Origin: Phycisphaerae bacterium
GTDB taxonomy: Bacteria > Planctomycetota > Phycisphaerae > UBA1845
Length of the DNA: 40,111 bases
Reading direction: 5' to 3'
NCBI GenBank assembly: GCA_016929015.1
Contig: JAFGJQ010000191.1
Location: 1 to 40,111, forward strand
Part shown: positions 21,550 through 36,836 of the stretch, piece by piece
How positions within the stretch are numbered: the first letter of the stretch is position 1
How the letters are laid out: the number at the start of each line of letters is the position of its first letter
The notes under the pieces: model-generated
Seen by the model: the letters and a program-made list of their open reading frames with translations, nothing else
Database searches by the model: none
What the model was told of the DNA's origin: nothing
Made by a program: the position numbers and the translations under genes

Positions 21550-21612
21550 CTCGCGCCGTTGCGGTCACCGCCGGGCCCGCAGGTGAAGGCCGCCTTGGGA
21601 GAAGTCCAGACG

Positions 21613-22566
21613 ATGAAACGAGAACAGTGGAAGCGACGGGGTCAACGTTGGATCGCGATCCCCCTGGCGGCCGGCGGCCTGCTGACATGCGGTGTCGCCT
21701 GTCTGCAGCCGGCCGGAAGTGAGCCCGCGCCGCTGTCGCCGGCGCCGCCGCAGGCTCGTTTTGTGATTCAGGCGCACCGCGGGGCCGGCAATTCGGCGCC
21801 GGAAAACACGCTCGAATCCTTCGAGTTGTCGTGGGCGATGGGGACGGTGCCCGAAGCCGACGTCCGCACGACGAAGGACGGCGTTCTGGTCGCATTTCAC
21901 GACAACACGCTGAAGCGGCTGGTCAAGAACGTGCCGGCCGAGCGAGCCAACCTGGGGATCGCCGATCTTCCGTGGGCCGAGGCGGGAAAACTGGACGTGG
22001 GCGCGTACAAGGGCGAGGCGTTCCGCGGCCAGCACATCCCGCGGATGTGCGACGTGTTCGCGGCCATGCGCGGGCGGCCGTCGCGGTGGCTGTATCTCGA
22101 CATCAAGGATGTCCCGCTGGCGACGCTGGCCGCCCTGGTTCGGCGGCACGGCGTCGAGCAACAGGTCATCCTGGCCTCCACGAAATACCCGCTCATCTGT
22201 GCGTGGCGGGAACTGCTGCCCGAAGGCCGGACGCTGCACTGGATGGGCGGCGATGAAGCGGAATTGTCGCAGCGGCTGAGCGCGTTGCGGGAGGAAGGCT
22301 TCCGGGGCATTACCCAGCTCCAGATCCACGTGCGAGTCAACGATCCGGGCGAGGACGACCCGTTCCGCCCGTCCTCCGCGTTCCTCGCGTCTGTCGGACG
22401 CGAGTTGCAGGCGTACGGCATCTTGTTTCAGACGCTTCCCTGGGATTGTGACGACGTCGGCGTGTTTCACCGCCTGCTGGACCTGGGGGCGAAGTCGTTC
22501 GCCACAGATTTCCCGGAAACCGCCCTGGAGGCCGTTCGAACGTATGAGCGGCGGGAGGGCCGTTGA
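21613..22566 (+). CDS. glpQ: Glycerophosphodiester phosphodiesterase, exported
   Basis: GlpQ cleaves glycerophosphodiesters (deacylated phospholipids) to G3P and an alcohol. The 317-residue protein starts with a signal peptide (KREQWKRRGQRW, then a hydrophobic core) with Cys residues at 26 and 30. LLTC or GVAC could act as an atypical lipobox. The catalytic domain has QAHRGAGNSAPENTLESF (His55, Arg56, Glu64), the metal-binding EADVRTTKDG, and VAFHDNTLKRL with catalytic His96, followed by FATDFPE near the end. GGGAGAAG lies eight nt upstream of the ATG. Its stop codon overlaps the start of the next gene. First gene of an operon predicted to be controlled by GlpP antitermination. Confidence 0.92.
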   Translation: MKREQWKRRGQRWIAIPLAAGGLLTCGVACLQPAGSEPAPLSPAPPQARFVIQAHRGAGNSAPENTLESFELSWAMGTVPEADVRTTKDGVLVAFHDNTLKRLVKNVPAERANLGIADLPWAEAGKLDVGAYKGEAFRGQHIPRMCDVFAAMRGRPSRWLYLDIKDVPLATLAALVRRHGVEQQVILASTKYPLICAWRELLPEGRTLHWMGGDEAELSQRLSALREEGFRGITQLQIHVRVNDPGEDDPFRPSSAFLASVGRELQAYGILFQTLPWDCDDVGVFHRLLDLGAKSFATDFPETALEAVRTYERREGR

Positions 22567-23987
22567 ACTCTTTGGGTGCCTGTATCGTGACGTGTGAACC
22601 GTTGAATCCGTGGGTGCGCGAGGCTCTGGACCTGGCTTCCGATACCCAGGAAGTGAGACTGGGCCGCGGCGCCGTTGACGAAGCCGCGAACGTGTTCGGA
22701 CAGTGCTTTGGCGACGCTACGCCCATGGTTGTCGCCGATACGGCCACGTTCGAGGCCGCCGGCCGAAAGACCTTTGACGTTCTAAGTCGGGCCGGGCAGA
22801 CCCCAGTGGACGCATTCGTATTCGAGGGCCCCGACCTGCACGCCCACCACGATCACGTGGTGCGGCTGCAGCAGCAGCTCGGCTTGACTGACGCAGTGCC
22901 CGTCGCGGTCGGATCGGGAACGATCAACGACCTGGTAAAGCTGGCGGCGCACCGCTGCCGGCGCCCGTACATGGTGGTGGGCACGGCGGCGTCCATGGAC
23001 GGCTACACCGCATTTGGGGCGTCCATCAACCGTGCCGGATCGAAGCAGACGTTCTACTGCCCGGCCCCTCGGGCGGTGATCGCGGACCTGGACGTGATCT
23101 GTGAAGCTCCCACGGAGTTGAACGCCGCCGGCTACGCGGACCTGGCCGCCAAGACGACCGCAGGCGCAGACTGGATTCTCGCCGACGCGCTGGGAATCGA
23201 TGCCATCGCTCCGGAGGCATGGGAAATGGTCCAGAACCGCCTGGCGGACTGGCTGGGCGATCCGGCGGGCGTCCGGAATCGAAGCCCGCAGGCCCTGCGA
23301 GACCTGATGGAGGGGCTGCTCATGACCGGCTTTGCCATGCAGTGGTGCAAATCCAGCCGGCCGGCCTCCGGGGCGGAACACCAGTTCAGTCACCTGTGGG
23401 ACATGCAGAATCATCACCACGAGGGCCGCATTCCCCTGCACGGCCACAAGGTGGCGGTTGGCACGCTGGCCTCCACGCTGCTGTACGAGGCGATGCTGGA
23501 AGCTCCGATCCAGACGATCGACGTGCAGCGTGTGTGCGCGGAATGGCCGGAGGCGAACACGATTGCGCGGTTGGCGACGCGCGCCCACGAGTCGCTGGCG
23601 CTTCGAGCGGTGGCCATCCGGGAAAGCCAGGCCAAGTACGTGGATCGCTACACGTTGTCTCAGCGGTTGGACCGTCTCAAGGAACTCTGGCCCGAACTGC
23701 GTGGGAGACTGACCGGCCGGTTGATCCCGTCCCACCGCCTGCGAGACATGCTGAAGGATGCGGGCGCGCCGATCGATCCCGGCGACATCGGCATTGATCG
23801 AGCCCGCCTGCGTCGCTCGTACGTTGAGGCGTACCAGATCCGCCGCCGATACACCGTGCTGGACCTGGCGGTGGAGTCGGGGACCCTGCCGCCGTGCCTG
23901 GACCGACTTTTCGGCGGCAACGGGGCCTGGGGCGCCGACGCTTGCCCGCCTGGCTCGAACGATGCGCGAGCGTGCAGTACGCCCTGA
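22563..23987 (+). CDS. egsA: sn-Glycerol-1-phosphate dehydrogenase (EgsA/AraM family)
   Basis: This NAD(P)H-dependent enzyme reduces dihydroxyacetone phosphate to sn-glycerol-1-phosphate, the backbone of archaeal lipids and of the heptaprenylglyceryl lipids made in Bacillus via AraM. The 474-residue protein has the Rossmann-type nucleotide-binding GSGTINDLVKLAA (117-129), GTAASMDGYTAFGASI, the metal ligand region AAGYADLAAKTTAGADW (Asp193 by family comparison), and His-containing SGAEHQFSHLWDM and LHGHKVAVG. These match the AraM layout rather than glycerol dehydrogenase. The TTG start overlaps the glpQ stop and is preceded by GGGAGG. The extra ~100 C-terminal residues are helical. The two key His motifs are intact, so activity is plausible. 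Confidence 0.9.
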   Translation: MNSLGACIVTCEPLNPWVREALDLASDTQEVRLGRGAVDEAANVFGQCFGDATPMVVADTATFEAAGRKTFDVLSRAGQTPVDAFVFEGPDLHAHHDHVVRLQQQLGLTDAVPVAVGSGTINDLVKLAAHRCRRPYMVVGTAASMDGYTAFGASINRAGSKQTFYCPAPRAVIADLDVICEAPTELNAAGYADLAAKTTAGADWILADALGIDAIAPEAWEMVQNRLADWLGDPAGVRNRSPQALRDLMEGLLMTGFAMQWCKSSRPASGAEHQFSHLWDMQNHHHEGRIPLHGHKVAVGTLASTLLYEAMLEAPIQTIDVQRVCAEWPEANTIARLATRAHESLALRAVAIRESQAKYVDRYTLSQRLDRLKELWPELRGRLTGRLIPSHRLRDMLKDAGAPIDPGDIGIDRARLRRSYVEAYQIRRRYTVLDLAVESGTLPPCLDRLFGGNGAWGADACPPGSNDARACSTP

Positions 23988-24039
23988 AGTGGAATGCGCA
24001 ACACAGGCCGGCGCCGGCAGATATGGGAGAAGGCAATCC

Positions 24040-24897
24040 ATGACGAAGAACAACGTCGCATTCGGCTCCATCCGGCACGTCGCCTTGGACATGGACGGCA
24101 CCATCTACAAAGGCGGGACACTGTTTGAATGGACGCTCGGTTTCCTGGCCCGGCTGGACGCACTGGGCATCGGGCACACGTTTCTGACGAACAACTCGTC
24201 GCGCAGCCGGAAGGACTACCTGCGTCATTTGCGAAAGATGGGGATCGTCGCGACCGCCGACCAACTCTACACGTCCACGCTGGCCACGATCGACCACGTG
24301 CGAAACGTCTATCCCGCCGGCCGCCGGCTTTTCCTGATCGGCACGCCCAGCCTGGCCGATGAGCTTGCAGAGGCGGGCTTCGAGGTAATCACAGACCCGC
24401 ACAGCGAGGCGGAGCCCGACCTGGTGATCGTGGGTTTCGACACGGCGCTCGAGTACACGCGCCTGTGCAAGGCGGCCTGGTGGATCAGACGGGGCAAGCC
24501 GTTCATCGCGACGCACCCCGACCGGGTTTGCCCGACCGACCTGCCCACGGTGCTGGTTGACTGCGGTGCGGTGTGCGCGTGTCTGGCGAGCGCGACGGGG
24601 GTGGAGCCGGCGGCGGTCCTGGGCAAGCCGGACCCCCGGATGTTGACGGGCATTCTGCAGCGACACGGGTTGGCGCCGCACGAACTGGTGATGGTCGGCG
24701 ATCGGCTCTACACGGACATGGTCATGGCCCAGCGAGCGGGCGTGATGGGAGTGCTGGTGCTGACCGGCGAGGCGACAGCCGAGGACGCCGTGCAGTGGCC
24801 GACGCTGCCGACGGTCGTCTTGCCGAGCCTGAAGGAACTGGGCGACCTGCTGGCACGCGCCCGCAGGGCGAAGTCGTCGGCCACAGACGGGGAGTAG
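24040..24897 (+). CDS. HAD-superfamily phosphatase, subclass IIA (NagD/AraL-like)
   Basis: A 285-residue cytoplasmic HAD phosphatase with all four motifs: LDMDGTIY (Asp17 nucleophile, Asp19), FLTNNSSRS, the Lys motif in VLGKPDPRML, and MVGDRLYTDMVMAQRAGV. The cap between motifs II and III is the C2 type of NagD, AraL and glycerol-phosphate phosphatases. The ATG follows GGGAGAAGG. In Bacillus subtilis araL (a NagD-like phosphatase) sits beside araM (G1P dehydrogenase), and the same pairing is seen here. A role in removing phosphate from glycerol phosphates, or in clearing phosphosugars, is inferred from this context only. Confidence 0.9.
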   Translation: MTKNNVAFGSIRHVALDMDGTIYKGGTLFEWTLGFLARLDALGIGHTFLTNNSSRSRKDYLRHLRKMGIVATADQLYTSTLATIDHVRNVYPAGRRLFLIGTPSLADELAEAGFEVITDPHSEAEPDLVIVGFDTALEYTRLCKAAWWIRRGKPFIATHPDRVCPTDLPTVLVDCGAVCACLASATGVEPAAVLGKPDPRMLTGILQRHGLAPHELVMVGDRLYTDMVMAQRAGVMGVLVLTGEATAEDAVQWPTLPTVVLPSLKELGDLLARARRAKSSATDGE

Positions 24898-24909
24898 AAG
24901 AACGGGACC

Positions 24910-26397
24910 ATGAATCGCTCGCAGACCATTGCAGGACTGACCGCCGCCGGCCTGGACGTGCTCGTCGTGGGCGGGGGCATCGTGGGGGCGGGGATTGCCC
25001 GCGATGCGGCCATGCGCGGCCTGCGCGTCGGCCTGGTGGAACAGCACGATTTCGCGTACGGCACCAGCAGCCGCTCCAGCCGGCTGCTGCACGGGGGGCT
25101 GCGGTACCTGGCCCAGGGGCGGGTCGGACTCGTGCGCGAAGCCAGCATCGAGAAGCGCGTCGTGCATTCGATTGCGCCGCACCTGGCGGAACCGCTCCCC
25201 TTTCTCTTTCCGACGTACGAATGCCCGCCCTGGGCCACCTGGGCCCACTGGAAGCTGAGCATCGGCGTCCGCCTGTACGACCTGTTGTGCAGCGGTCGAA
25301 ACCTGGGGAAATCGACATCGCTGAACGCCGCCCAGTTGGTCGAACGTCTGCCGCAAATCCGGCGGCAGCGACTCACCGGTGGCGTGTACTACTACGACGG
25401 GCTGACCAGCGACGGGCGCCTGGTCCTGGACACGCTGCGATCCGCCGAAAACGCCGGCGGCCTGGTACTGAACTACTGCCGCATGGAGACGTCGGAGCCG
25501 GATGCCGGCGGCTGGCGCTGTCGCCTGTGGGATCGTCTCTCGGACACCCGCTTTGACGTGACCGCCCGCTGTGTGGTCAACGCGACGGGGCCGTGGGCCC
25601 CGCAGATCCGGCACAGCCGCGTGCGGCTCCGGCTCACGAAGGGTGTGCACATCGTCGTGGACCGGACCCGACTGCCCGTGCCCTGCGCCGTGGTCATGAC
25701 AGACGAGAAACGCATTCTCTTCGCGATTCCCTGGGGCGAGCGGGTCATCCTGGGCACCACGGACACGGACTACGACGGCGTGATCGAGGACGTTCAGACC
25801 GATCCCGAGGATACGCAGTACATTCTCGACATTGTCAACAACGCCTTTCCGGACGCCGACCTGGTGCCGCAGGATGTCATCGGCGATTGGGCCGGCCTGA
25901 GGCCGCTGATCGCCGATCCCCATGGGAACCCGTCGGACATCTCGCGATCACACGAGATTCGTTCACCCGCGCCCGGATGGTGGGACGTGGCCGGCGGCAA
26001 GCTCACCACGTATCGGCTGATGGCCGAGCAGACGGTGGACCGAATCGGCCGGCACATCGGGCGAAAGCTCCGCCCCTGCACGACGGCCACGGTCCCGCTG
26101 TTGGGCCGCGCGGAGGCGGCCGGCGTCAGCGGCATCGTTCCGCCGCCCGTCAGCCGCGACGTCGTCCGGCACTGCTGCCGGAACGAATGGGCCGTACACC
26201 TGGATGACGTCATGACCCGGCGTACAAGCTGGCGATTCTACTTCCGTGACGCGGGCGAGACGGCCGCTCAGGTCGCCCGCTGGATGGCCGATTCGCTGGG
26301 TTGGGATGAGGAACGCATCGCCCAGGAGGTCCGCCGCTACGCCGAGGGCACCGCACACGCAGGCAACGGCCGCGCCGGCGCGGCCTGTACGCAGTAG
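24910..26397 (+). CDS. glpD: Glycerol-3-phosphate dehydrogenase, FAD-dependent
   Basis: GlpD oxidises G3P to dihydroxyacetone phosphate at the membrane and feeds electrons to quinone. The 495-residue protein has the FAD-binding VLVVGGGIVGAGIARDAAMRG, the family block YGTSSRSSRLLHGGLRYL, the C-terminal substrate-site TTDTDYDG, WAGLRPLI, and GGKLTTYRLMAE. It is the last gene of the operon, 12 nt after the phosphatase. Together with GlpQ it would channel glycerophosphodiesters into central metabolism, and the DHAP it makes is also the substrate of the EgsA-type enzyme encoded two genes upstream. No motif is missing. Confidence 0.95.
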   Translation: MNRSQTIAGLTAAGLDVLVVGGGIVGAGIARDAAMRGLRVGLVEQHDFAYGTSSRSSRLLHGGLRYLAQGRVGLVREASIEKRVVHSIAPHLAEPLPFLFPTYECPPWATWAHWKLSIGVRLYDLLCSGRNLGKSTSLNAAQLVERLPQIRRQRLTGGVYYYDGLTSDGRLVLDTLRSAENAGGLVLNYCRMETSEPDAGGWRCRLWDRLSDTRFDVTARCVVNATGPWAPQIRHSRVRLRLTKGVHIVVDRTRLPVPCAVVMTDEKRILFAIPWGERVILGTTDTDYDGVIEDVQTDPEDTQYILDIVNNAFPDADLVPQDVIGDWAGLRPLIADPHGNPSDISRSHEIRSPAPGWWDVAGGKLTTYRLMAEQTVDRIGRHIGRKLRPCTTATVPLLGRAEAAGVSGIVPPPVSRDVVRHCCRNEWAVHLDDVMTRRTSWRFYFRDAGETAAQVARWMADSLGWDEERIAQEVRRYAEGTAHAGNGRAGAACTQ

Positions 26398-26440: not shown

Positions 26441-26469
26441 TTGAACCCATCCCCGCATCGGAATAAGAT
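26441..26469 (+). promoter_or_regulatory. Candidate promoter of the phosphodiesterase-like cluster
   Basis: TTGAAC and TAAGAT are separated by 17 bp in the 119-bp gap after glpD. This suggests that the following four-gene cluster can be transcribed independently of the glp operon. Confidence 0.5.
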
Positions 26470-26516
26470 GCCCTATTCGCGTTTCCGGGCAAGTCAGGTC
26501 CGACAGGGGCCGGGAA

Positions 26517-28664
26517 GTGGCGGTTATAGGACCGCCGGGATGCCAGGTGCAGGTCAAAGCGTCACACAATTCAAACTGTCGGCGGTCAACGGAACGCATC
26601 GTTCTCCTGGCCGGGTGCCTGTTGGTCGCACTGGCTGAACCCGCGCAGGCGTACATCGGCCCGGGCGCGGGGTTTGCCGTCCTGTCGTCAGCGCTGGTGA
26701 TCCTGACCGCGATGTTGTCGGCCATTCTCACGCTGTTCACGTGGCCGGCGCGCTGGGTGATCCGGGCCATCCGTGGCCGGCGGGCGTTTGCCCGGGCGAA
26801 GGTCCGTCGGGTGGTGTTCGTCGGGCTGGATGGCATGGACGCCGGGCTGGTCGAACGGTACATGGAAGAGGGCCGGCTGCCGAACCTCGCCGCCCTGCGG
26901 AAGAGAGGGTATTACAGCCGGCTGGGCACCACGCTGCCGGCCATCACGCCGACGGCCTGGTCGTCGTTTCTGACCGGCACGAACCCGGGCAAGCACAACA
27001 TCTTTGACTTTCTCACGCGCGACAAGCGAAGCTACCTGCCGATGCTCTCCTCGGTGCAGATCTCCGGCGGTCGCAAGCCGAGCATCCGGCTGTTGCGCAG
27101 AGGCAAGCCGTTCTGGAACATCCTGGGCGAGCACGGCATCTTCAGTAACATCATCCGGGTGCCGATCACGTTCCCGCCGGAGCGATTCCGCGGCGTCCTG
27201 CTGTCGGCCATGTGCGTGCCGGACGTGCGGGGCAGCCAGGGCACGTTCTCGTTCTACACGACGCGTCCGCGCGATGAGGCCATCTACGAAGGCGGCGAAC
27301 AGGTGCAGGTCACCCGTGAGGGCAACCGCATCCGGTCCGAGCTGGTCGGCCCGGAAATCGAGCGGAACGGCGGCAAGGTCACGCTTCGCGCGCCGTTCTC
27401 GGTAGACATTGACGACGGCAACGAACGGGCCACCGTCACCGTTGGCGACACGAGCCTGACGCTGGGCCGGCGGCAGTTCAGTCCGTGGATCACCGTGACG
27501 TTCGACGGCGGGGTCCGCCGGAAAGTGCGAGGCATCTGCCAGTTCCAGTTGATCCAGACCCAACCGCACTTTGAGATGTACGTCTCGCCGATCCAGATTG
27601 ACCCGGAGAATCCGGCGTTTCCCATTTCGCACCCCACCGTGTTCAGCATGTACCTCTCCAAGAGCCAGGGCAAGTTCGCCACGCTCGGCCTGGCGGAGGA
27701 CACCTGGGCCCACAACGAGTGCATCCTGGAAGACCCCGGCTTCCTGCACCAATGCACGGAGGCCGACGAAGAGCGCGAGCGCATGCTCATGGACGCCCTG
27801 GACAAGGTGAGCCAGGGCCTGGTGGTGTGCGTTTTTGACAGCACCGATCGCGTGAATCACCAGTACTGGCGGTATCTCGACCCCAGGCACCCCGCCCGGC
27901 ACGGCTTCGGCGATGAGAAGCTCGCGACGGCCATTCCGGACCACTACGCCCGGATCGACGCCATGCTCGGTCGCGTGCTGCGGCGCTGCGACCGCCCGGA
28001 CACGGTCGTGATGATTCTCTCCGACCACGGGGCAACGTCATTCCGCCGCGGCGTCGACGTGAACCGGTGGCTGATCAACAACGGCTACATGGCGCTCAAG
28101 CCGGACGCGAAGCCCGGCGCGCGGTACCTCGTCAATGTCGACTGGTCGCGGACGCGGGCGTACGCGAGCGGCCTGGCCGGCATCTACCTGAACCTCAAGG
28201 ATCGGGAGGGCCAGGGCATCGTCGAGCCGGGCGAAGAGGCCGACCGCCTGCGCGACGAACTGTGTGAGAAGCTCCGCGGGCTGAAAGACCCGCAGACCGG
28301 CGAGACGGCCATCCTGGAGGTCTACAACAGCCTGAAATACTACCGTGGCCCCTTCAAGGAAGAGGCCCCGGATCTGATGGTCGGCTACAACGAGGGATAC
28401 CGCGTCTCCTGGGAGGCGGCCATCGGCGACATCACGGACCAGGTTTTTGCGGACAACCACAAAGCCTGGAGCGCCGATCACTGCGTGGACCCGCGACTGG
28501 TGCCGGGCATCCTCTTCTGCAACCGGAAGATCGAGGCCGAGCACCCGCGCATTCTGGACATGGCCCCGACCACGCTGGATCTGTTCGGTGTGGACGTGCC
28601 CAAGAACATGGACGGCCACGTGCTGAGCGTCGCCGTCAACCGGAAGACGGAATCCGCAGACTGA
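26517..28664 (+). CDS. Membrane-anchored alkaline phosphatase superfamily protein (type I phosphodiesterase-like)
   Basis: About 715 residues. A signal-like segment (RRSTERIVLLAGCLLVALAEPAQA) is followed by the motif AYIGPGAGF and a transmembrane helix, then a basic stretch. From residue ~97 the catalytic domain shows VFVGLDGMD (metal Asp105), LPAITPTAWSSFLTGTNPG (nucleophile Thr144 by alignment with nucleotide pyrophosphatase/phosphodiesterases), FDSTDRVNHQYW and ILSDHG for metal binding, and WSADHCVDPRLVPG near the end. A ~150-residue beta-rich insert sits in the middle. Start GTG at 26517 is uncertain; GTG at 26547 also fits. The next gene is a paralogue beginning 4 nt after the stop. Substrate unknown; the catalytic domain could face either side of the membrane depending on signal cleavage. 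Confidence 0.85.
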   Translation: MAVIGPPGCQVQVKASHNSNCRRSTERIVLLAGCLLVALAEPAQAYIGPGAGFAVLSSALVILTAMLSAILTLFTWPARWVIRAIRGRRAFARAKVRRVVFVGLDGMDAGLVERYMEEGRLPNLAALRKRGYYSRLGTTLPAITPTAWSSFLTGTNPGKHNIFDFLTRDKRSYLPMLSSVQISGGRKPSIRLLRRGKPFWNILGEHGIFSNIIRVPITFPPERFRGVLLSAMCVPDVRGSQGTFSFYTTRPRDEAIYEGGEQVQVTREGNRIRSELVGPEIERNGGKVTLRAPFSVDIDDGNERATVTVGDTSLTLGRRQFSPWITVTFDGGVRRKVRGICQFQLIQTQPHFEMYVSPIQIDPENPAFPISHPTVFSMYLSKSQGKFATLGLAEDTWAHNECILEDPGFLHQCTEADEERERMLMDALDKVSQGLVVCVFDSTDRVNHQYWRYLDPRHPARHGFGDEKLATAIPDHYARIDAMLGRVLRRCDRPDTVVMILSDHGATSFRRGVDVNRWLINNGYMALKPDAKPGARYLVNVDWSRTRAYASGLAGIYLNLKDREGQGIVEPGEEADRLRDELCEKLRGLKDPQTGETAILEVYNSLKYYRGPFKEEAPDLMVGYNEGYRVSWEAAIGDITDQVFADNHKAWSADHCVDPRLVPGILFCNRKIEAEHPRILDMAPTTLDLFGVDVPKNMDGHVLSVAVNRKTESAD

Positions 28665-28668
28665 TGAC

Positions 28669-31008
28669 ATGAACGTGAGAGTCTGGACATTTCGTTGTGG
28701 CCGTTTGTCGCTTCGTTGCGGCGCCGCCCTCCTGCTCGGGGTCCTGTCCGTTCTCACCGGCTGCGACCGCCCACCACAAGCCCACAAGACTTCCGTCATC
28801 GTCCTCGGGTTCGACGGCATGGAGCCCGGCCTCACCGAGAAGATGATGAACGAGGGCCGGCTGCCGAACTTCGCCCGCCTCCGGGACATGGGCAGCTTCG
28901 GGCCGCTGCAGACGGTCATCCCGCCGCAGAGTCCCGTCGCCTGGGCAACGTTTGCCACGGGCCTGAACCCCGGGGGGCATGGCCTGTTCGACTTCATCCA
29001 TCGCGACCCGAGCCCGCCGCAGCCTGGCCCGCCGATCTCGCCGTACTCCGCCATGGCCCGGACCGTCGAGGACCGGCCGTGGTATGCCAAGCCGTTCATC
29101 GCCGTGCTGGGTGAGGAGATCGAGTGGGGTGACTACAACATCCCCCTGGTGTCGGCCCGGCACGAGCTGCTGCGGCACGGCACGCCGTTCTGGCAGTACC
29201 TGACGGAAGCCGGCGTGCCCGCCGCGGTCTACCGGCTGCCCGCGAACTTTCCATCCGTCCACATGCAGGGCGTCTCGTTCCGCGCGTTGACCGACATGGG
29301 CACGCCCGACCTGAGCGATTCCGTCGGTGGGAACTTCTCGTTTTACAGCAGCGACAAGGATTTCAATTTCCGACAGGAAATCGGAGGCGGGAAGGCCTAC
29401 CCCGTTCAGATCATCAACGGCATGGTGCTGCCGGAACGTGCCGCGCTGACGGGAACGGTGAAGACGGTGCTGTCCGCCACGGAATTCATCCTGCCCGGCT
29501 GGCACGCGCTGGAACCGCGGATCGACGGCTTCGCGGGCTGCGTGGCGGTCGCCAGCCGCGGGTCCGGCCGGGGCGAATGCATCCGAGCCATCCGCTCGCT
29601 GGACCCCGTCACACGTACGATCACGCTGGAGACTCCGTTTGACTTTGAGTTGAAACCGGAGGCCCTGGTCAAGGTATTTACGCCGTGCAAGTTGTACGGC
29701 CCCGCGAACACCACGGTGAATGCGAAGGAAAAGCCGGCACTCGAAGCCAGTTGGACCGCCTACGTGGATCCCGACCAACCGGCGGCATGCATTGAGATCG
29801 GCGGCCGGCGCGTCGTGATGCGCGAGGGCGAATGGAGCGAATGGCAGCCCATCGAATTCCCCATGGCCTACGGACTGACGGCGCCGGCCCTGCTGCCGCC
29901 GGTCCCCGCGATGTGCCGGCTCTATCTGCGCTGCGTGCGGCCGAACTTCGAGCTCTACGTGTCGCCGATCAACTTCGACCCGTTCGAGCCGGCCATCACG
30001 TTCTGCTCGCCGGATAACTTCTCGGCGGAAGTCGCCGGCGCCATCGGCCGGTACTACACGCAGGGGATGCCCGAGAACTTCAACGCCTTGAAGAGCCTCG
30101 TGCTGACCCGCGACGAGTTTCTGCAACAGGCCGACATCGTCGAAGAGGAACGAGAGAAGCTGCTGGACTTCGCCCTGGACCATTTCCAGGGCGGGCTGCT
30201 GTTTTTCTATTACGGCGGAACGGACCTGGTTTCGCACCTGTTCTGGGGCGTTCGTGACCCGGAGCACCCCGGCATCACCGACGAAGAGCGAGTCAAGTAC
30301 GCCGAGACCGTTGAACACTACTACATCGATGCCGACGTCATGCTTGGCCGCACGCTTGACTGGGCGGCCGAGAATGCGCCGGACGCCGTCATCGTGGCGA
30401 TCAGCGACCACGGTTTCGAGACCTTCTCCCGCGGCCTCAATGTCAACAACTGGCTTCAGGAGCATGGCTTCGCGAAGATGGGGCCGTTCCGCCCCTCTGA
30501 GCCCCTCAACATCAACTGGGCCGAGTCCCGCGCTTACGCCATGGGCATCAACGGCATCTACGTGAACCTTGCCGGCCGGGAGAGCCGGGGCATCGTCAAG
30601 CCCGAAGATAAGCAGGCCCTGCTGGACGAGATCACGCGTGAACTGCTGGATGAAGTCGACCCCAAAACGGGCCGGCACATCGTCGACACGGTGTACCAGT
30701 CCGATCGGGTCTACAGCGGCCCGTACGTGAAGACGCTGGCGCCGGACCTGCAGGTCGGCTACGCCCGCGGTTACCGGGCAAGCTGGGCCACCGGTTTGGC
30801 CTCCTTCGGAGACTCCGTCGTGGAGGACAACACGAATCCGTGGGGCGCCGACCACTGCATCGCCACGCACCTGGTGCCCGGCATCATCGTCTGCAATCGC
30901 CCGCTGACCGCGCAGAAACCCGGGCTGATCGATATGGCGCCGACCATCCTCCGCCGGTTCGGCATCACGCCGCCGACGACGCTGGAAGGCCGGGACGTGT
31001 TCGAATAG
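28669..31008 (+). CDS. Alkaline phosphatase superfamily lipoprotein (paralogue of preceding gene)
   Basis: A 779-residue paralogue of the upstream protein with a lipoprotein signal (LLLGVLSVLTGC, Cys32), so it is probably tethered in the periplasm or surface. The catalytic domain has VIVLGFDGMEPG (Asp49), PPQSPVAWATFATGLNPGG, YYGGTDLVSHLFW, AISDHGF and WGADHCIATHLVPG. The nucleophile position is Ser88 rather than the Thr of its partner. The central insert is larger and beta-rich. It starts 4 nt after the preceding stop with no strong ribosome binding site, suggesting translational coupling. Metal ligands appear intact, so both paralogues may be active, but a Ser nucleophile may shift specificity. 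Confidence 0.85.
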   Translation: MNVRVWTFRCGRLSLRCGAALLLGVLSVLTGCDRPPQAHKTSVIVLGFDGMEPGLTEKMMNEGRLPNFARLRDMGSFGPLQTVIPPQSPVAWATFATGLNPGGHGLFDFIHRDPSPPQPGPPISPYSAMARTVEDRPWYAKPFIAVLGEEIEWGDYNIPLVSARHELLRHGTPFWQYLTEAGVPAAVYRLPANFPSVHMQGVSFRALTDMGTPDLSDSVGGNFSFYSSDKDFNFRQEIGGGKAYPVQIINGMVLPERAALTGTVKTVLSATEFILPGWHALEPRIDGFAGCVAVASRGSGRGECIRAIRSLDPVTRTITLETPFDFELKPEALVKVFTPCKLYGPANTTVNAKEKPALEASWTAYVDPDQPAACIEIGGRRVVMREGEWSEWQPIEFPMAYGLTAPALLPPVPAMCRLYLRCVRPNFELYVSPINFDPFEPAITFCSPDNFSAEVAGAIGRYYTQGMPENFNALKSLVLTRDEFLQQADIVEEEREKLLDFALDHFQGGLLFFYYGGTDLVSHLFWGVRDPEHPGITDEERVKYAETVEHYYIDADVMLGRTLDWAAENAPDAVIVAISDHGFETFSRGLNVNNWLQEHGFAKMGPFRPSEPLNINWAESRAYAMGINGIYVNLAGRESRGIVKPEDKQALLDEITRELLDEVDPKTGRHIVDTVYQSDRVYSGPYVKTLAPDLQVGYARGYRASWATGLASFGDSVVEDNTNPWGADHCIATHLVPGIIVCNRPLTAQKPGLIDMAPTILRRFGITPPTTLEGRDVFE

Positions 31009-31065
31009 GTATCGTGTCCGGCCCCGCCGCAGCGCTGTCGGCCGGGCCGGAAGGGAGTGCGAAAA

Positions 31066-31254
31066 GTGGCCAAGATCAAGATCGACGACGCCCTGTACGA
31101 CCGCGTCAAGCGGGTGGCCGACACCGCCGGGTACGCCTCGCCGGAAGAGTTCATCACCTATGTGATCGAACGCGAGCTGGACAAGATCGCACCTGACAAC
31201 GTCAGCGATCAGGAAGTGATGGAGCGGCTCCGCGGGCTGGGTTACATCGAGTAA
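31066..31254 (+). CDS. Small ribbon-helix-helix-like protein
   Basis: 62 residues from a GTG placed eight nt after AAGGGAG. The first ~42 residues have the strand-helix-helix plan of CopG/Arc proteins: a short strand (AKIKID), helix one (DALYDRVKRVADTAGY) and helix two (PEEFITYVIERELDKI). The last 20 residues end in EVMERLRGLGYIE. That tail resembles MEKLRALGYVG, found right after the sulfatase-like domain of the 951-residue lipoprotein encoded at 11.6-14.5 kb. It may be a dimeric DNA binder that controls this cluster, or a small partner of the phosphodiesterase-like proteins. Neither is shown. Confidence 0.7.
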   Translation: MAKIKIDDALYDRVKRVADTAGYASPEEFITYVIERELDKIAPDNVSDQEVMERLRGLGYIE

Positions 31255-31282
31255 GGGACCGTTCCTCGCTGGTGACAACCGC

Positions 31283-32113
31283 ATGGGAGTTCTGAACAGC
31301 ATTCTGACCGCCCTGTTCGACACGGTGTACGCCGTGCTCGGGCTGGGACCGCGCTGGCTCTCGCTGACCATCCTTTCCGGCGTGGTCGGGGTGATTGCCC
31401 TGATCGTCGTGCGGTTTTGCTCCAACCAGGCGGCCATCGGCCGGGTGAAAGACGACATCAAGGCCAACATGCTGAGCCTGAAGCTCTTTAAGGATGAGCT
31501 GCGGGTGGTGCTGAAGGCCCAGGCCCGGCTGGTCTGGGCCGGCCTGCGGATGCAGTATTACATGGTGCCGCCGTTGCTGGTCATGTTCATCCCGTTCGTG
31601 CTCGTCGCGGCCCAGATGGGCCTGCGATACCAGTGGCGTCCCGTCGAAACCAATGAACCGACGGACCTGACCGTCTTGCTCCGCCCGGACGTCCCGGACT
31701 CCGCGCTGAACTGGGTGCTGGAAACCCCGGACGGCGTGGAGGCTTCCCCATCCGGCCGAGGCGTTCGGATCAACGCTGATAGAAAGGCGGTGGTCTGGAA
31801 TCTCACGGGGCGCAAGCCCGGCCGGCATGTTCTCACCCTGCAGAACGGCACTGAATCGGTCACGAAGGAGTTCGTCGTAGGCAGGGATCAGGATCGTGTC
31901 AGCCCCATGCGGCCCGGCCCGAGCCTGCTGGACCGCATCCTCTACCCGGCCGAACGCCCGTTCGGCTCAGACTCCATCATCCAATCCATCGCCGTCACGT
32001 ACCCCCCCCGCGATTCGTGGTTCCACGGCGCCGACTGGTGGGTCTTCTGGTTCCTGGTGCTGTCCATCGTCATCGCCCTGCTGCTCAAGCCCGTGTTCGG
32101 TGTGAAGCTGTAA
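31283..32113 (+). CDS. Membrane protein with DUF106/EMC3/Oxa1-like topology
   Basis: A 276-residue protein I cannot name with certainty. There is one N-terminal membrane helix (WLSLTILSGVVGVIALIVV), then a basic amphipathic cytoplasmic segment (NQAAIGRVKDDIKANMLSLKLFKDELRVVLKAQ), then a second helix (MVPPLLVMFIPFVLVAAQMG). A ~120-residue beta-rich extracytoplasmic region and a C-terminal helix (WWVFWFLVLSIVIALLLKP) follow. The helix, basic coiled segment, helix order recalls archaeal DUF106 and EMC3, members of the Oxa1 insertase superfamily. It is the last gene of the phosphodiesterase-like cluster. Its final 147 bp overlap the 3' end of the convergent batE frame. Confidence 0.6.
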   Translation: MGVLNSILTALFDTVYAVLGLGPRWLSLTILSGVVGVIALIVVRFCSNQAAIGRVKDDIKANMLSLKLFKDELRVVLKAQARLVWAGLRMQYYMVPPLLVMFIPFVLVAAQMGLRYQWRPVETNEPTDLTVLLRPDVPDSALNWVLETPDGVEASPSGRGVRINADRKAVVWNLTGRKPGRHVLTLQNGTESVTKEFVVGRDQDRVSPMRPGPSLLDRILYPAERPFGSDSIIQSIAVTYPPRDSWFHGADWWVFWFLVLSIVIALLLKPVFGVKL

Positions 32114-33010
32114 GGCGGCGAATTCCGTCGCGTTTTGCACATCCTGCGCCCGGGCCTCGACGTGTACCATGCCCGCCCGATCGGACGGAATCCAGCCCGT
32201 TTTGCCGTCAGCCAGCTCGATGAGCAGCCAGTCACCCCGGGATTCGAGCACGGTGAACTCCGTCCCCTCGTGCAGCGGCTGCTGAAACTTCGGATCGTAC
32301 GTTTCGCTGTCCCCCTTGCGCACGATCACCTCGTCCGCCAGCACCACGCCCGCCTGCTTTCGCCCCTCCACCTGCCAATCCACGAGCACGGAAATTCCCA
32401 GACCCACCCACGCCGCCGCCAGCACACCGGCCAGTGCACGCAGGGAAAGCCGCGGGGCGTACATGCGTAGAAGCAGAACCAGCCAGAACAGCACGTAGCA
32501 GACCAGACCTGCCGCGAATCGAGTCTGCAGAGAAGTCTGGTAGTGCAGAAAGAACAGCGTCCGGACAAACTCGCTGCTGCCGCGCTGCGGAATCTGCGTG
32601 CGACACAGCTCGCGCGCGACGCGCAGGTTCTCCTGCAAACGCCGATCACCCGGGATCAAATCCTGTGCCCGCCGGTAATTCAGGATGGCCGCACCCAGCC
32701 GGCCCCGCTGAAGCTCGGCGTTGCCCAGGTTGTAGAACAGCCGACCGTTCCGTACGCCGGAATCAACCAGGGCCTCATACTTGCCCACGGCCTGGGCAAA
32801 CGCCTCGCTCGCACCGACCGGGTCCGACCGCTCCAGCTCCTTGCCCCGGTTGAACGCCGCAGAGGCCTCCGCCAGAAGCCGTTCCTGCTGGTCGCGTGTC
32901 AGGGACTCCGCGCGGGCCGCGTCCGCCGCCAATATCGCGACCGCCGCTGCCACCAGAACCAGCCCGGTGCGGCCGGTCAGAAAGACTGTCGTTCCAGCTC
33001 TCGAATGCAT
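31967..33010 (-). CDS. batE: BatE: TPR and SH3-like membrane protein of the Bat operon
   Basis: A 347-residue protein with a signal peptide (VLVAAAVAILAADAARA). Tetratricopeptide repeats (AFNRGKELERSD, NGRLFYNLGNAELQRGRLG) are followed by two membrane helices (residues ~165-205). An SH3-like domain comes next (VIVRKGDSETY, EGTEFTVLESRGDWLLIELADGKTGWIP). This order is that of BatE, last gene of Bat (Bacteroides aerotolerance) operons. The ATG lies inside the end of batD, a 34-bp overlap, with AGGG upstream. After the SH3 domain the frame runs on for ~60 polar residues antisense to the neighbouring membrane-protein gene. That tail may be real or may reflect a lost stop codon. Confidence 0.82.
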   Translation of the reverse strand: MHSRAGTTVFLTGRTGLVLVAAAVAILAADAARAESLTRDQQERLLAEASAAFNRGKELERSDPVGASEAFAQAVGKYEALVDSGVRNGRLFYNLGNAELQRGRLGAAILNYRRAQDLIPGDRRLQENLRVARELCRTQIPQRGSSEFVRTLFFLHYQTSLQTRFAAGLVCYVLFWLVLLLRMYAPRLSLRALAGVLAAAWVGLGISVLVDWQVEGRKQAGVVLADEVIVRKGDSETYDPKFQQPLHEGTEFTVLESRGDWLLIELADGKTGWIPSDRAGMVHVEARAQDVQNATEFAALQLHTEHGLEQQGDDDGQHQEPEDPPVGAVEPRIAGGVRDGDGLDDGV

Positions 33011-34791
33011 TCCTGTGCCCTGACCACCAGGGAGTCACCCGCTTCCACGCCGCGGCCCGCGTAGCGGGCGTCATCGCAGCACCGCAGCAACGCATCCACG
33101 CGCTCGGCCACATCCGGCCGGACGCCACGATGCAGCATCGCCTCGATCGTGTCCGCCCGCGTCAGACCGGCCGTGGGAAGGTTGCAGCGATCGGCCACGT
33201 ACCCGATCAACGCACCGGCCACCGCATCCGCCGCACCGGCACCGGCGCCGTCGCGTGCCGATGCCAACGCGTGGGACGCATTCCGGCGGGCCGATCGGCG
33301 TCGGGCGTACGAGCGGTCCGTCCGCAGACGCTCCTTCCGCCGCCGGCCGGCCCACAGCACGCCGAATAACAGGGGCGGCACCACCGCCACGACAACGGAG
33401 GCCGCTCCGGGGGCGAAGGACTGGTCTGCCAGCAGCTCGGTGCTGCCATAGTAATTCGCAACAATCCCCCCGCTCAACTCCGTCAGATGCGTGGGGGCAA
33501 CGAGGCCCGGCCGGGCCTCCACGACCTCCGACACCGCCATCCGCTGGGCCGCCTCCACCTTGAGCGGAATCGGCTCGCTCTGCACGACGACAAACTTCTC
33601 CGCCTTCGTGTCGAAATAGGCAAACGGAATGGGGGGGATTTCCGTCACGGATTCCGATTTCGCCCGAATGCTCTGCGTGAAGACCTTCGAGTTGCCCTGC
33701 ACCGAGCCGGCCAACACCTCGTCCGGGACCTGAAAATCGGCCGTCAACTCGGGCACTTCGACCAGGGCCGGCGCCTGCAACAGGTCCAGCCGCCCCTGGC
33801 CGCGCAGCGTCATGGTCAGCGTGATCGGGTCGCCCACCCGGACCTCCGTCGGCTTGGCCGTCACGCTCAGCGCGTACGGCTCCACCGCCCCTCGGAAAAA
33901 CGCCGGCTGGCCCTCCGTCGGGACAGCCTTCACCTCGATGGGCGGCACGGCGGGCGTGGCCTGCACCGGCCGGGCATCCGTCACGCGAAGCTGGTCTTCA
34001 AAGAAACTGCGCTCCCGACGCAATCCGACTGGGTACGTCACCACAACACGGACGTCGCCGGTGTCCAGCGGTCCGGGACGCTCCGGCCACACCGTCGTCC
34101 GAATCTCGTAGAGATAGTATCCACGGTCGGAGCCCTCGGAATCGGCGCGCAGCACTTCCCGGCCTCGAGGACGGACGCGCTGGCGAGCCATGTCAGCCAG
34201 CGAGTCCGTGAACACACCCCACCGGCTGTTCTCCTCATTCACGAGCGACCACATGTCGTCCTCGTCCAGCCGGATTCCCAGCGACTTGTCGGTGAAGGGC
34301 CGAATCCAGATCTTCAGGACGAGATCCAGGCGCTCCCCCGCGTAGAGGGAATCCCGCGCTCCCTCCACCTCCACGAACAGCAGGTCGCCGGTCTCCGACT
34401 TGACGGCCACAAGCTCGAGGGGGTCTGTCTTCCGGGTCTCACCATCCATTTTCACGGAGAAGGGCGGAACGCGAATCGTGCCCACCCGCTCCGGCGTGAC
34501 GGCGTACACGTACGTGACCGTCTTCTCCTGCGACATCTGCCCTTGGATGATGCTTGTGCGAGAACTGGTCTGCGGCCCAGCAATCAGGCGAATGTCGGCC
34601 CCGTCCACCTCGGACGGCTCCGGCAACTCATGCGACTCTGCATTCCGGATAACCACCAGCACGCGTACCGGCTGCCCCACGTACGCCTCCCGGCTGGAGA
34701 CCTGGACGGCCACGTCGCCGGCGCGGGCGACGCCCGCAACGGCGAGTGCAAAGGCCGTTCCCAGAAGCCAACCTGGCTGCATGCGATTCAT
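32977..34791 (-). CDS. batD: BatD: exported, membrane-anchored Bat protein
   Basis: A 604-residue protein with a signal peptide (WLLGTAFALAVAGVARA) and several beta-sandwich repeats typical of BatD/oxygen-tolerance proteins (VSSREAYVGQPVRVLVVI, VEVEGARDSLYAGERLDLVL, VTAKPTEVRVGDPITLTMTL). It ends with a membrane helix (VVVAVVPPLLFGVLWAG), a basic stretch and a helical cytoplasmic tail. ATG at 34791 shares one base with the batC stop (TGATG) and has AAGGA six nt upstream, so it is preferred over the TTG two codons earlier. BatD is thought to join the BatA/BatB complex in the periplasm. The exact function of Bat proteins remains unsettled. Confidence 0.9.
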   Translation of the reverse strand: MNRMQPGWLLGTAFALAVAGVARAGDVAVQVSSREAYVGQPVRVLVVIRNAESHELPEPSEVDGADIRLIAGPQTSSRTSIIQGQMSQEKTVTYVYAVTPERVGTIRVPPFSVKMDGETRKTDPLELVAVKSETGDLLFVEVEGARDSLYAGERLDLVLKIWIRPFTDKSLGIRLDEDDMWSLVNEENSRWGVFTDSLADMARQRVRPRGREVLRADSEGSDRGYYLYEIRTTVWPERPGPLDTGDVRVVVTYPVGLRRERSFFEDQLRVTDARPVQATPAVPPIEVKAVPTEGQPAFFRGAVEPYALSVTAKPTEVRVGDPITLTMTLRGQGRLDLLQAPALVEVPELTADFQVPDEVLAGSVQGNSKVFTQSIRAKSESVTEIPPIPFAYFDTKAEKFVVVQSEPIPLKVEAAQRMAVSEVVEARPGLVAPTHLTELSGGIVANYYGSTELLADQSFAPGAASVVVAVVPPLLFGVLWAGRRRKERLRTDRSYARRRSARRNASHALASARDGAGAGAADAVAGALIGYVADRCNLPTAGLTRADTIEAMLHRGVRPDVAERVDALLRCCDDARYAGRGVEAGDSLVVRAQECIRELERQSF

Positions 34792-35690
34792 CACCAATCC
34801 TTGTCCACCGGCGGGCGGCCGAGCATCTGCCGCCGCCGGACTTCGTCCCGTCGCTCCCGCTCCCGGTCCCGAACCGCCTGAAGGAGGCGGGCCGCCTCTT
34901 CCCGAGTCATTTTCCGCATGTCCTGCTCCTGCGGCTTGCCCGCCTGTTGCTGTTGCTCCTGCTTGTCCTGCGGGTTTTCCGACTCCAACTCGCCGTTCTG
35001 CGGCTGGGACGACTGCTCCTGCTTCGACTGCTCCTGCTCACCGCCCTGCTGTTGCTGCTTCTGTTGCTGCTGCTGCGATTGTTCCTGCTGCTGTTGTTGC
35101 CCGTCCTGCTCCTGCTGCTGCTGATCCTGGCCCTCGGACGGCTGGCTGCACTGCGACGGCTGCGACGTGGGCGGTTCCTCCTGCTTCTTCTTCTCCTCTT
35201 CCTGCTTCTTCTTGTCCAGCAGGTCCTTGATCAACAGGTAGGCGGTCTCGATGTTCGCCCGGGCGTCCTGGTCGTCCGGATCGAGTTCCAGCGCGTCGCG
35301 ATAGTAATCAATGGCCCGCCGCAAATCCTCGATCGCTCCCGCATAATCCGTGAGCTTCTGAAGCGACTGCGAATACGCGCAGTTGCCCAGGTTGAATTTC
35401 GCCTTCTGCTCCAGGGCAAGGTCACGCGTGGACAGGGCCGACGCGAATGCCTCTTTCGCCTCGTCGAAATCCCCCAGGCGATACAGCGCCACGCCGCGGT
35501 TGTACGCCAGCTCCGATGATTCCGGGAAGCTCACCTCCGCATCCCGAAACCCTTCCAGCGCCTTCTCATACTCTCCCGCCTTCAGCGCCGCCATCGACGC
35601 ATCGACCTTCTTGCGCGCATCCGCCTCCGTCTGCCCCCGCGCCGGCATCGCCGCCGCCATGACAACCAGCATGGCAATCAGCGCCTTCAC
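34791..35690 (-). CDS. batC: BatC: TPR protein with long Gln-rich region
   Basis: A 299-residue exported protein. The signal peptide (KALIAMLVVMAAAMPARG) is followed by three to four tetratricopeptide repeats (AGEYEKALEGF, SSELAYNRGVALYRLGDFDEAKEAF, KAKFNLGNCAYSQS, ALELDPDDQDARANIETAYLLI). A Lys/Glu coiled segment and a ~110-residue stretch dominated by Gln come next, then a basic helix (TREEAARLLQAVRDRERERRDEVRRR). Such low-complexity tails are common in BatC. The GTG start is supported by AAGGGG ten nt upstream; the longer frame would run through a heptanucleotide repeat array. Translationally coupled to batD. Confidence 0.88.
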   Translation of the reverse strand: MKALIAMLVVMAAAMPARGQTEADARKKVDASMAALKAGEYEKALEGFRDAEVSFPESSELAYNRGVALYRLGDFDEAKEAFASALSTRDLALEQKAKFNLGNCAYSQSLQKLTDYAGAIEDLRRAIDYYRDALELDPDDQDARANIETAYLLIKDLLDKKKQEEEKKKQEEPPTSQPSQCSQPSEGQDQQQQEQDGQQQQQEQSQQQQQKQQQQGGEQEQSKQEQSSQPQNGELESENPQDKQEQQQQAGKPQEQDMRKMTREEAARLLQAVRDRERERRDEVRRRQMLGRPPVDKDW

Positions 35691-35709
35691 GGTCGGCACG
35701 CCCCTTCGC

Positions 35710-35729
35710 AATCCCGGTGCGCCGGGATT
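35710..35729 (-). promoter_or_regulatory. Hairpin between batB and batC
   Basis: AATCCCGG and CCGGGATT form a perfect 8-bp stem with loop TGCG, 19 bp upstream of the batC start and directly next to a repeat array. It has no T-tract, so it is more likely an mRNA processing or stability element than a terminator. Confidence 0.5.
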
Positions 35730-35730
35730 C

Positions 35731-35786
35731 GTAATTCGCAATTCGCAATTCGCCATTCGCAATTCACCATCCGCAATTCGCAATTC
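35731..35786. repeat. Heptanucleotide tandem repeat array (GCAATTC x 8)
   Basis: Eight consecutive 7-bp units: GTAATTC, GCAATTC twice, GCCATTC, GCAATTC, ACCATCC and GCAATTC twice. The array occupies the gap between the batB stop and the batC start almost exactly and is AT-rich against a GC-rich background. It recalls the short tandemly repeated heptamers (STRR) of cyanobacteria. Confidence 0.85.
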
Positions 35787-35790
35787 CCCG

Positions 35791-36807
35791 TCAGACCACC
35801 TTCCGTGTCGCCCGCCGCTCTGCGATCAGCGTCTCCAGCATCAGCAGTGCCAGCGCCGCTCCCGCAAACCACATGAACCGCGGGATCAACACCTGCTTCT
35901 GCGCAACTTCCATCTCCCGCTCCCGGACTTTCGAATCGATCACCCGGTAAATCTCGCGGAAATCAATGTCCCGCGTGGCCGCCCCGAAGTACGCGCCGCC
36001 CGCCACCGCCGCCATCTCCTCCAGGTCCTTCGCGTTCATCTTGGACCAGACTTCCTCGCCGTCGTGCACGAGGTACTGCCGCCCCTGGGCACCGGTCGGG
36101 ATGCGGGCGCCTTTTCGCGGGTCGCCCAGCCCGACCGTGAACACGCGAATGCCCTGCTTCTCATACGCCGACTGGGCCGCCTCCACCGGATAGCTCTCGT
36201 GGTCTTCGCCGTCCGTGATGACCAGGATGGCCTTGTGCTCCTTGATGCGGTCGACAAAGCTGTCCGCCGCCAGTCGAACGGCGTCGCCGATCAGCGTTCC
36301 GCCGCGCGGGGCGCTTTTCACGTCCACCTCGTCCAGCACCATACGGAACGCACCGTAGTTGATGGTCAGCGGGCACGCCAGCGACGGCGCCCCGGCAAAC
36401 GTCACCAGCCCGATTCGGTCGCCCGGCAGGAATTCCACCAGATCCTTCAATTCCTCCTTCGCCCGTTCCAGGCGGCTGGGGGCAATGTCCTCGGCCAGCA
36501 TCGAACGCGACACGTCCAGCACCACCATCAGGTCGATGCCCTTGCGAGGCAAAGTCTTGTATTCCTGCCCCCAGCGCGGACTCGTGGCGGCCACCGCCAG
36601 CAGGGCCGCCGCCGCCAGCACCAGCACCGCCTTGAGCCGCTGCCGGCCGGGACTCACGTGCGGCATCAGGTGCCCCAACAGATTCACGCTGGCAAACCGC
36701 CGCAGGGCCTGCCATTTGCGGGCAAACCCGTACGCGAACACCAGCCCCAGCACGGGCACCAGCCAGAGCAGATGAAGCAGTTCGCGATGTTCAAACGTCT
36801 CCGACAC
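35791..36807 (-). CDS. batB: BatB: von Willebrand factor A membrane protein
   Basis: A 338-residue protein with two N-terminal membrane helices (LLHLLWLVPVLGLVFAYGF and AVLVLAAAALLAVAA), a VWA domain, and a C-terminal helix (MWFAGAALALLMLETLI). The MIDAS metal site is intact: VVLDVSRSM (Asp98, Ser100, Ser102), the Thr in PRGGTLIGDAV, and VITDGEDHE. The GTG start has a modest AGAGGG upstream. It lies between batA and batC, the usual order. BatA and BatB are thought to form a membrane VWA complex linked to a MoxR-type ATPase, which would be encoded beyond the right edge if present. Confidence 0.92.
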   Translation of the reverse strand: MSETFEHRELLHLLWLVPVLGLVFAYGFARKWQALRRFASVNLLGHLMPHVSPGRQRLKAVLVLAAAALLAVAATSPRWGQEYKTLPRKGIDLMVVLDVSRSMLAEDIAPSRLERAKEELKDLVEFLPGDRIGLVTFAGAPSLACPLTINYGAFRMVLDEVDVKSAPRGGTLIGDAVRLAADSFVDRIKEHKAILVITDGEDHESYPVEAAQSAYEKQGIRVFTVGLGDPRKGARIPTGAQGRQYLVHDGEEVWSKMNAKDLEEMAAVAGGAYFGAATRDIDFREIYRVIDSKVREREMEVAQKQVLIPRFMWFAGAALALLMLETLIAERRATRKVV

Positions 36808-36836
36808 CGTCTCAAATCCCTCTGCGCGATCGCGTC

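Follow-up and report, generated by a model that had tools for sequence, protein, structure and literature searches.

Four genes arranged head to tail on the + strand of a contig of a Phycisphaerae bacterium (JAFGJQ010000191.1, assembly GCA_016929015.1) almost certainly encode the parts of one co-inherited membrane system, found in about ten phyla. The window analyzed is the stretch of 40,111 nucleotides at positions 1 to 40,111 of this contig, and the four open reading frames (ORFs), A, B, C, and D, occupy its positions 26517-32113, with intergenic gaps of 4 bp (A-B), 57 bp (B-C), and 28 bp (C-D). They code for two phosphodiesterases of the alkaline phosphatase (AlkP) superfamily, a small protein predicted to be of the ribbon-helix-helix (RHH) type, and a membrane protein with three transmembrane segments (TM1 to TM3). 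To our knowledge, the ABCD system fits no known kind, and its parts come from known superfamilies. The genes are as follows.

26517-28664, + strand: gene A, membrane-anchored AlkP-superfamily phosphodiesterase of 715 residues (PF01663 match)
28669-31008, + strand: gene B, AlkP-superfamily phosphodiesterase of 779 residues, predicted to be exported (PF01663 match)
31066-31254, + strand: gene C, RHH protein of 62 residues (AlphaFold2 [AF2] model, weak profile and fold matches)
31283-32113, + strand: gene D, probable DUF106/EMC3-type membrane protein of the Oxa1 superfamily, 276 residues, three transmembrane segments (profile match to MJ0480)

The start of A is uncertain, as the GTG at 26517 is followed by another at 26547 with a better-spaced GGGA.

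The four genes systematically co-occur. With D as bait, 24 of 150 genomes of the window's class gave a match, and 21 of the 23 non-self loci have the order A-B-C-D on one strand; in one locus (L036/L076) A is separated from B by about 5 kb, and the remaining 2 of the 23 contain a remote D family without A, B, or C. A wide sample was built with the A profile on GTDB genomes, which contain at least 577 relatives, and the best 80 loci were read. All four genes are present in 67 of these 80, and 12 of the remaining 13 run into the end of their contig; hence, among the loci extending past the cluster, 67 of 68 hold A, B, C, and D, and only L053 is without a recognizable D. The order is A-B-C-D in 63 of the complete loci and B-C-D-A in the other 4, which indicates that the gene set survives rearrangement. 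The carriers belong to the Planctomycetota, Desulfobacterota/δ-proteobacteria, Acidobacteriota, Aminicenantes, Kiritimatiellota, Calditrichota, Poribacteria, Eisenbacteria, and Dadabacteria, with one metagenome-assembled genome (MAG) of Bacteroidota; these phyla are database labels, which for MAGs may in some cases be mistaken (L076 carries the label Actinomycetes, yet its genome is in the window's class). In a separate D-only sample, 29 D loci were read from 294 Planctomycetota genomes, a few of which repeat earlier genomes, the loci being so short that A falls beyond them. B is upstream of D in all 29, and C lies between them in 28. A divergent cluster in G055 (L159) has the order phosphodiesterase, C, D, phosphodiesterase. 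The A-B-C-D arrangement is far beyond chance. The initial annotation had suggested a single system and had set the co-occurrence of the four families as its test, and on both counts the three samples bear it out.

One locus of the D-only sample (L216, Planctomycetota) has a gap of about 20 bp between B and D with no C between them; it is a natural loss of C and has a sulfatase downstream.

One could regard the cluster as independent phosphate-scavenging phosphodiesterases with bystander genes, held together by operon inertia. AlkP phosphodiesterases are indeed common, and in the window the cluster lies beside glycerol-phosphate genes. This account is contradicted as an explanation of the linkage by the 67 of 68 complete loci in about ten phyla, by the re-ordered clusters, and by the D-first sample, where B and C are attached in all but one locus; as a whole we consider it very improbable. 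The glycerol-phosphate genes themselves are not conserved: they are present in the window, as had been pointed out in the initial annotation, but the cluster has no relatives of them nearby in any of the 23 loci compared (0/23), so that the adjacency supports no meaning and the link was rejected.

D is very probably a member of the Oxa1 superfamily of the DUF106/EMC3 type. When a profile of 22 D proteins was compared with the PDB, the sole protein with E < 0.01 was MJ0480, the archaeal YidC-like DUF106 protein (E = 0.0014). With a profile of 64 diverse D members the match to MJ0480 reaches E = 3.2e-8, with the last TM aligned collinearly, and hhalign gives 91% for the pair. The match spans TM1, the hairpin, and TM2, with a common Q after TM1 and P...P in TM2. 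An artifact of hydrophobicity was rejected, because reversing the MJ0480 sequence lowers the score from 34.1 to 0.6 bits. The Pfam family PF01956 (EMC3_TMCO1) is matched by 2 of the 22 and 9 of the 64 D relatives (best E value 8.7e-7). D was also considered as a YidC and this was rejected: it has no PF02096 match and, against the genome's own YidC, an hhalign probability of 2% and a score of -0.6 bits. YidC structures are absent from the PDB matches of the D profile, and the true YidC of this genome is encoded on another contig. The AF2 model of D (mean predicted local distance difference test [pLDDT] score 93.8) has helices at residues 2-19, 24-46, 49-68, 73-116, and 252-267, plus a β domain. 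Residues 118-203 match SbsC and filamin domains, with Z around 6 over 68-80 residues (Foldseek, VIA-align). The hairpin is predicted to be cytosolic, and the immunoglobulin (Ig)-like insert to lie on the extracytoplasmic or periplasmic side. The segments of D are as follows.

31352-31420, + strand: TM1 (residues 24-46), followed by the hairpin, residues 49 to about 95, predicted cytosolic (AF2 helices, MJ0480 alignment)
31634-31891, + strand: Ig/filamin-like β domain (residues 118-203), between TM2 and TM3 (Foldseek, VIA-align)
32036-32083, + strand: TM3 (residues 252-267), collinear with the last TM of MJ0480 (profile alignment, AF2)

A second, remote D-like family has about 270 residues and a weak match to the D profile, and occurs without A, B, or C (L047:6323-7135, L048:6789-7601, L162:6064-6876, L163:7107-7913). 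Its genes lie directly 3′ of one whose product has a PEP-synthase/PPDK-like N-terminus; upstream of the latter there is usually a gene for a membrane PQQ-propeller-like protein. These loci represent another conserved cluster of DUF106-like type in bacteria.

A and B match PF01663 (E = 2.9e-35 and 4.3e-31) and are paralogs with 31% identity. Their tree shows two ancient paralogous clades, both of which extend across the phyla; a few of its B rows are in fact A ORFs, mistakenly taken from loci that are truncated or that overlap. In A, the positions of D105, T144, D444, H448, D503, H504, and H655 are kept in 100 of 100 alignment rows, the nucleophile being Ser in 93 and Thr in 7. The same catalytic positions (metal ligands and Ser/Thr nucleophile) are kept in the 100 rows of the B alignment, to which truncated or overlapping loci contributed some A ORFs. 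Judging from these alignments, A and B are intact AlkP-superfamily phosphodiesterases, with the predicted active-site set complete. The nucleophile stands in the context S/T-P-x-A-W, and a sulfatase assignment (PF00884) was rejected, as there is no C/S-x-P-S-R formylglycine motif at this position. B has no sequence match in the PDB. In five loci from Aminicenantes-type genomes (L103, L107, L118, L120, and L123), a third AlkP phosphodiesterase of about 430 residues, PDE430, is encoded directly upstream of A.

The N-termini of the two enzymes differ. A starts with a hydrophobic signal or TM1, then a YIGPGAG-type motif, and then TM2:

26652-26675, + strand: YIGPGAGF motif of A, between signal/TM1 and TM2 (Y.[GDA]PG.G motif in 97 of 101 loci)

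The net charge is -0.4 in the TM1-TM2 loop and +8.5 in the 23-residue stretch that follows TM2, so that by the positive-inside rule the catalytic domain of A is predicted to face the cytosol. Among the relatives of B, a twin-arginine motif is present in 57 of 100 and a lipobox in 37 of 100; the B of the window carries the lipobox SVLTGC. As either signal implies export, the catalytic domain of B would face the periplasm, on the opposite side from A.

In its AF2 model (pLDDT 83), C has an extended N-terminus and three helices, at 8-21, 26-41, and 48-58. Its PDB fold matches are headed by RHH proteins (VapB, NikR, FitA, Arc, ParD) with weak scores, its profile is weakly similar to that of NikR, and RHH_1 is weakly matched by 5 of 21 C members. 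On the strength of the model, C is an RHH-type protein with a strand-helix-helix fold. No viral relatives of C were found. The parts list of the initial annotation, i.e., two AlkP-superfamily enzymes with different anchors, an RHH-like small protein, and an EMC3/DUF106-type membrane protein, is in agreement with these data. The most conserved part of C is its end, LRGLGYI[E/D/S]:

31225-31251, + strand: C-terminal tail of C, RLRGLGYIE, with invariant LxGLGY (C alignments)

LxxLGY is found at the C-terminus of 89 of 90 C proteins and, in cis, after the catalytic domain in 23 of 27 sulfatases near the clusters; of 205 A, B, and PDE430 enzymes, none has it at the C-terminus. A similar tail (RLRALGYIE) is carried by another RHH family, which adjoins a 465-residue phosphodiesterase of cytosolic type (L164:7572-9293, L160:6825-12284). 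These distributions suggest that C and this other RHH family may supply the tail in trans to phosphodiesterases without one. In L160, the RHH-LGY protein and the phosphodiesterase are encoded with CysD and CysN in a locus without D, and this set is possibly a module for sulfate activation.

The Oxa1 membership of D allows a reading in which it works solely to insert or chaperone the membrane parts of the cluster, mainly the TM1-YIGPGAG-TM2 hairpin of A, with A and B being ordinary surface phosphodiesterases and C the repressor of the operon. The conserved short-loop hairpin of A is of the kind that such insertases handle, RHH proteins are usually repressors, and as the genome already has a true YidC, D would be specialized. 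However, a DNA-binding role leaves the invariant sulfatase-like tail of C unexplained, and an insertase dedicated to one protein with two TMs would be unusual. We regard this reading as somewhat unlikely.

Clustering of the flanking genes around ABCD loci reveals a theme of sulfation. A PF13469 sulfotransferase of 190-200 residues is encoded directly 3′ of D on the same strand in 18 of the 57 loci with room for it. The family match has E = 1.7e-7, and both PRSGTS (the 5′-phosphosulfate-binding [5′-PSB] loop) and R94...S102 (3′-phosphate) are invariant in 17 rows; by these motifs, the gene after D in other genomes codes for a sulfotransferase of the 3′-phosphoadenosine 5′-phosphosulfate (PAPS) type. 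In the genomes of the class, the sulfotransferase family is present in 17 of 22 with ABCD versus 31 of 128 others (p = 3e-6, raw). Away from ABCD, the sulfotransferase neighborhoods share no pathway, and an AlkP gene adjoins in L197 and L200. Arylsulfotransferases (ASST) are upstream of A in several loci. CysD and CysN are found in L054, L063, L076, L080 (CysN only), and L118, the last with a contiguous CysD-CysN-PDE-A-B-C-D array. Sulfatases are present in 16 of 67 loci and lie inside the cluster in L076, L098, and L124. The gene context, as read from sequence, thus points to sulfation. In L063, a DUF2061 membrane protein (L063:11909-12238) is encoded between CysN and CysD, in a cluster adjoining ABCD.

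In another reading, A and B, together with the related PDE430, would act at both membrane faces to hydrolyze or recycle nucleotides of activated sulfate or sulfo/phospho-nucleotide sugars, in the service of sulfate activation and not of lipid chemistry. AlkP phosphodiesterases lie beside CysD/CysN in L063, L080, L118, and L160, and the PAPS-type sulfotransferase after D is consistent with it. Yet B is predicted to lie in the periplasm, a compartment where no nucleotides are expected, only 4-5 of the 67 ABCD loci contain CysDN, and the insertase-like membrane partner is left unexplained. We therefore consider this alternative improbable.

The model that we favor, tentatively, is a membrane-spanning phosphodiesterase system that may handle a membrane-linked surface molecule, probably a sulfated one, with a substrate and a pathway that we infer. 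A and B would be a split phosphodiesterase/transferase pair acting on a membrane-linked substrate, either a lipid or a lipid-linked glycan. A would cut or process a phosphodiester of this substrate at the inner face, and B would act at the outer face. D, as an Oxa1-type protein, would span the membrane between them, its hydrophilic groove aiding the crossing of a polar group or of A's own hairpin; members of the Oxa1 family insert polypeptides and are also able to scramble lipids (PMC10491306). C, as a trans subunit, would dock on A through its sulfatase-type LxxLGY tail, and may also bind DNA with its RHH part and autoregulate. The linked PAPS sulfotransferase would add sulfate, a frequent but not universal step. 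Because this enzyme is encoded after D in many species, the product would most likely be a sulfated surface lipid or glycoconjugate. The modification of lipid headgroups or surface polymers, proposed in the initial annotation, is possible.

Several observations weigh against the model or limit it. The charge bias is the whole basis for the orientation of A. In the window, neither C nor D matches a Pfam family above the cut-off. The fold search with the whole D protein returned nearly only Ig-like matches, as the Ig domain took up the list, and so speaks neither for nor against a structural match of the membrane core to EMC3, MJ0480, or YidC. The D-adjacent sulfotransferase is found in a minority of loci, and the copy of the window genome is on another contig. 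Finally, its co-occurrence with ABCD is not significant when stratified by order (Cochran-Mantel-Haenszel [CMH] test, p = 0.06) and is for this reason taken as supportive only.

Concerning the surroundings of the cluster, positions 21559-26397 hold a compact glycerol-phosphate array, with genes for a GDPD, a glycerol-1-phosphate-dehydrogenase-like protein (G1PDH-like, unusual in a bacterium), a HAD-IIA phosphatase, and a GlpD-like protein in a row. The single upstream promoter of the initial annotation was not recovered: there is no σ70-like site scoring at least 9/12 upstream of the cluster, where about 0.7 would be expected by chance. On the other side, a Bat-type operon (31967-37958, - strand; TPR/SH3 protein, BatD-like, TPR, and VWA-type proteins) is convergent with D, the 3′ end of which overlaps a long-ORF reading of the nearest Bat gene. 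No NCBIfam model matches A to D above its cut-off. None of the PADLOC models for anti-phage defense matches them either, and a reading as a defense system was dropped.

Bacteria have been credited only with the five-TM YidC form (PMC8675477), and whether the ancestral insertase core had three or five TMs is stated as unclear (PMC7618853). A three-TM family of DUF106/EMC3 type in about ten bacterial phyla makes this question directly testable; if the assignment of D is true, a three-TM Oxa1 form is widespread in Bacteria beside YidC, and the linked enzymes show what a specialized member of this type may be for. They also provide a handle on the making of sulfated surface molecules in environmental bacteria, many of them uncultured. 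The full proposal is that of an undescribed and widespread machine, in which a DUF106/EMC3-type protein, phosphodiesterases on opposite faces, and an RHH adaptor with a trans tail would build or remodel a sulfated surface molecule; we put it forward as plausible while still short of probable. The literature search, outside which most subscription journals fell, gave no description of bacterial DUF106/EMC3, of this gene set, or of COG3379.

The known systems resemble the cluster part by part. Archaeal DUF106/Ylp1 (MJ0480, PDB 5c8j) and eukaryotic EMC3/TMCO1, of the Oxa1 superfamily, are like D in having TM1, a helical hairpin (predicted to be cytosolic in D), TM2, and TM3. In contrast to them, D has a bacterial host and an Ig-like domain between TM2 and TM3, belongs to a fixed operon together with two phosphodiesterase genes and an RHH gene, and in most of its members misses the PF01956 model. 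YidC (PF02096) shares with D the Oxa1 superfamily in the broad sense only, as D lacks the bacterial TM3/4 hairpin and has no profile similarity to the YidC of its own genome. The type I phosphodiesterases/nucleotide pyrophosphatases of PF01663 are like A and B in domain, metal ligands, and Ser/Thr nucleophile, whereas A and B are two paralogs with long inserted regions, predicted to lie on opposite sides of the membrane. Sulfatases (PF00884) belong to the same AlkP superfamily and have in cis the LxxLGY tail of C, whereas A and B have neither the formylglycine motif nor the tail. Finally, NikR, VapB, FitA, and Arc have in common with C the predicted strand-helix-helix fold, to which C adds a third helix and an invariant LRGLGYIE end, in a cluster with no toxin or metal-domain partner.

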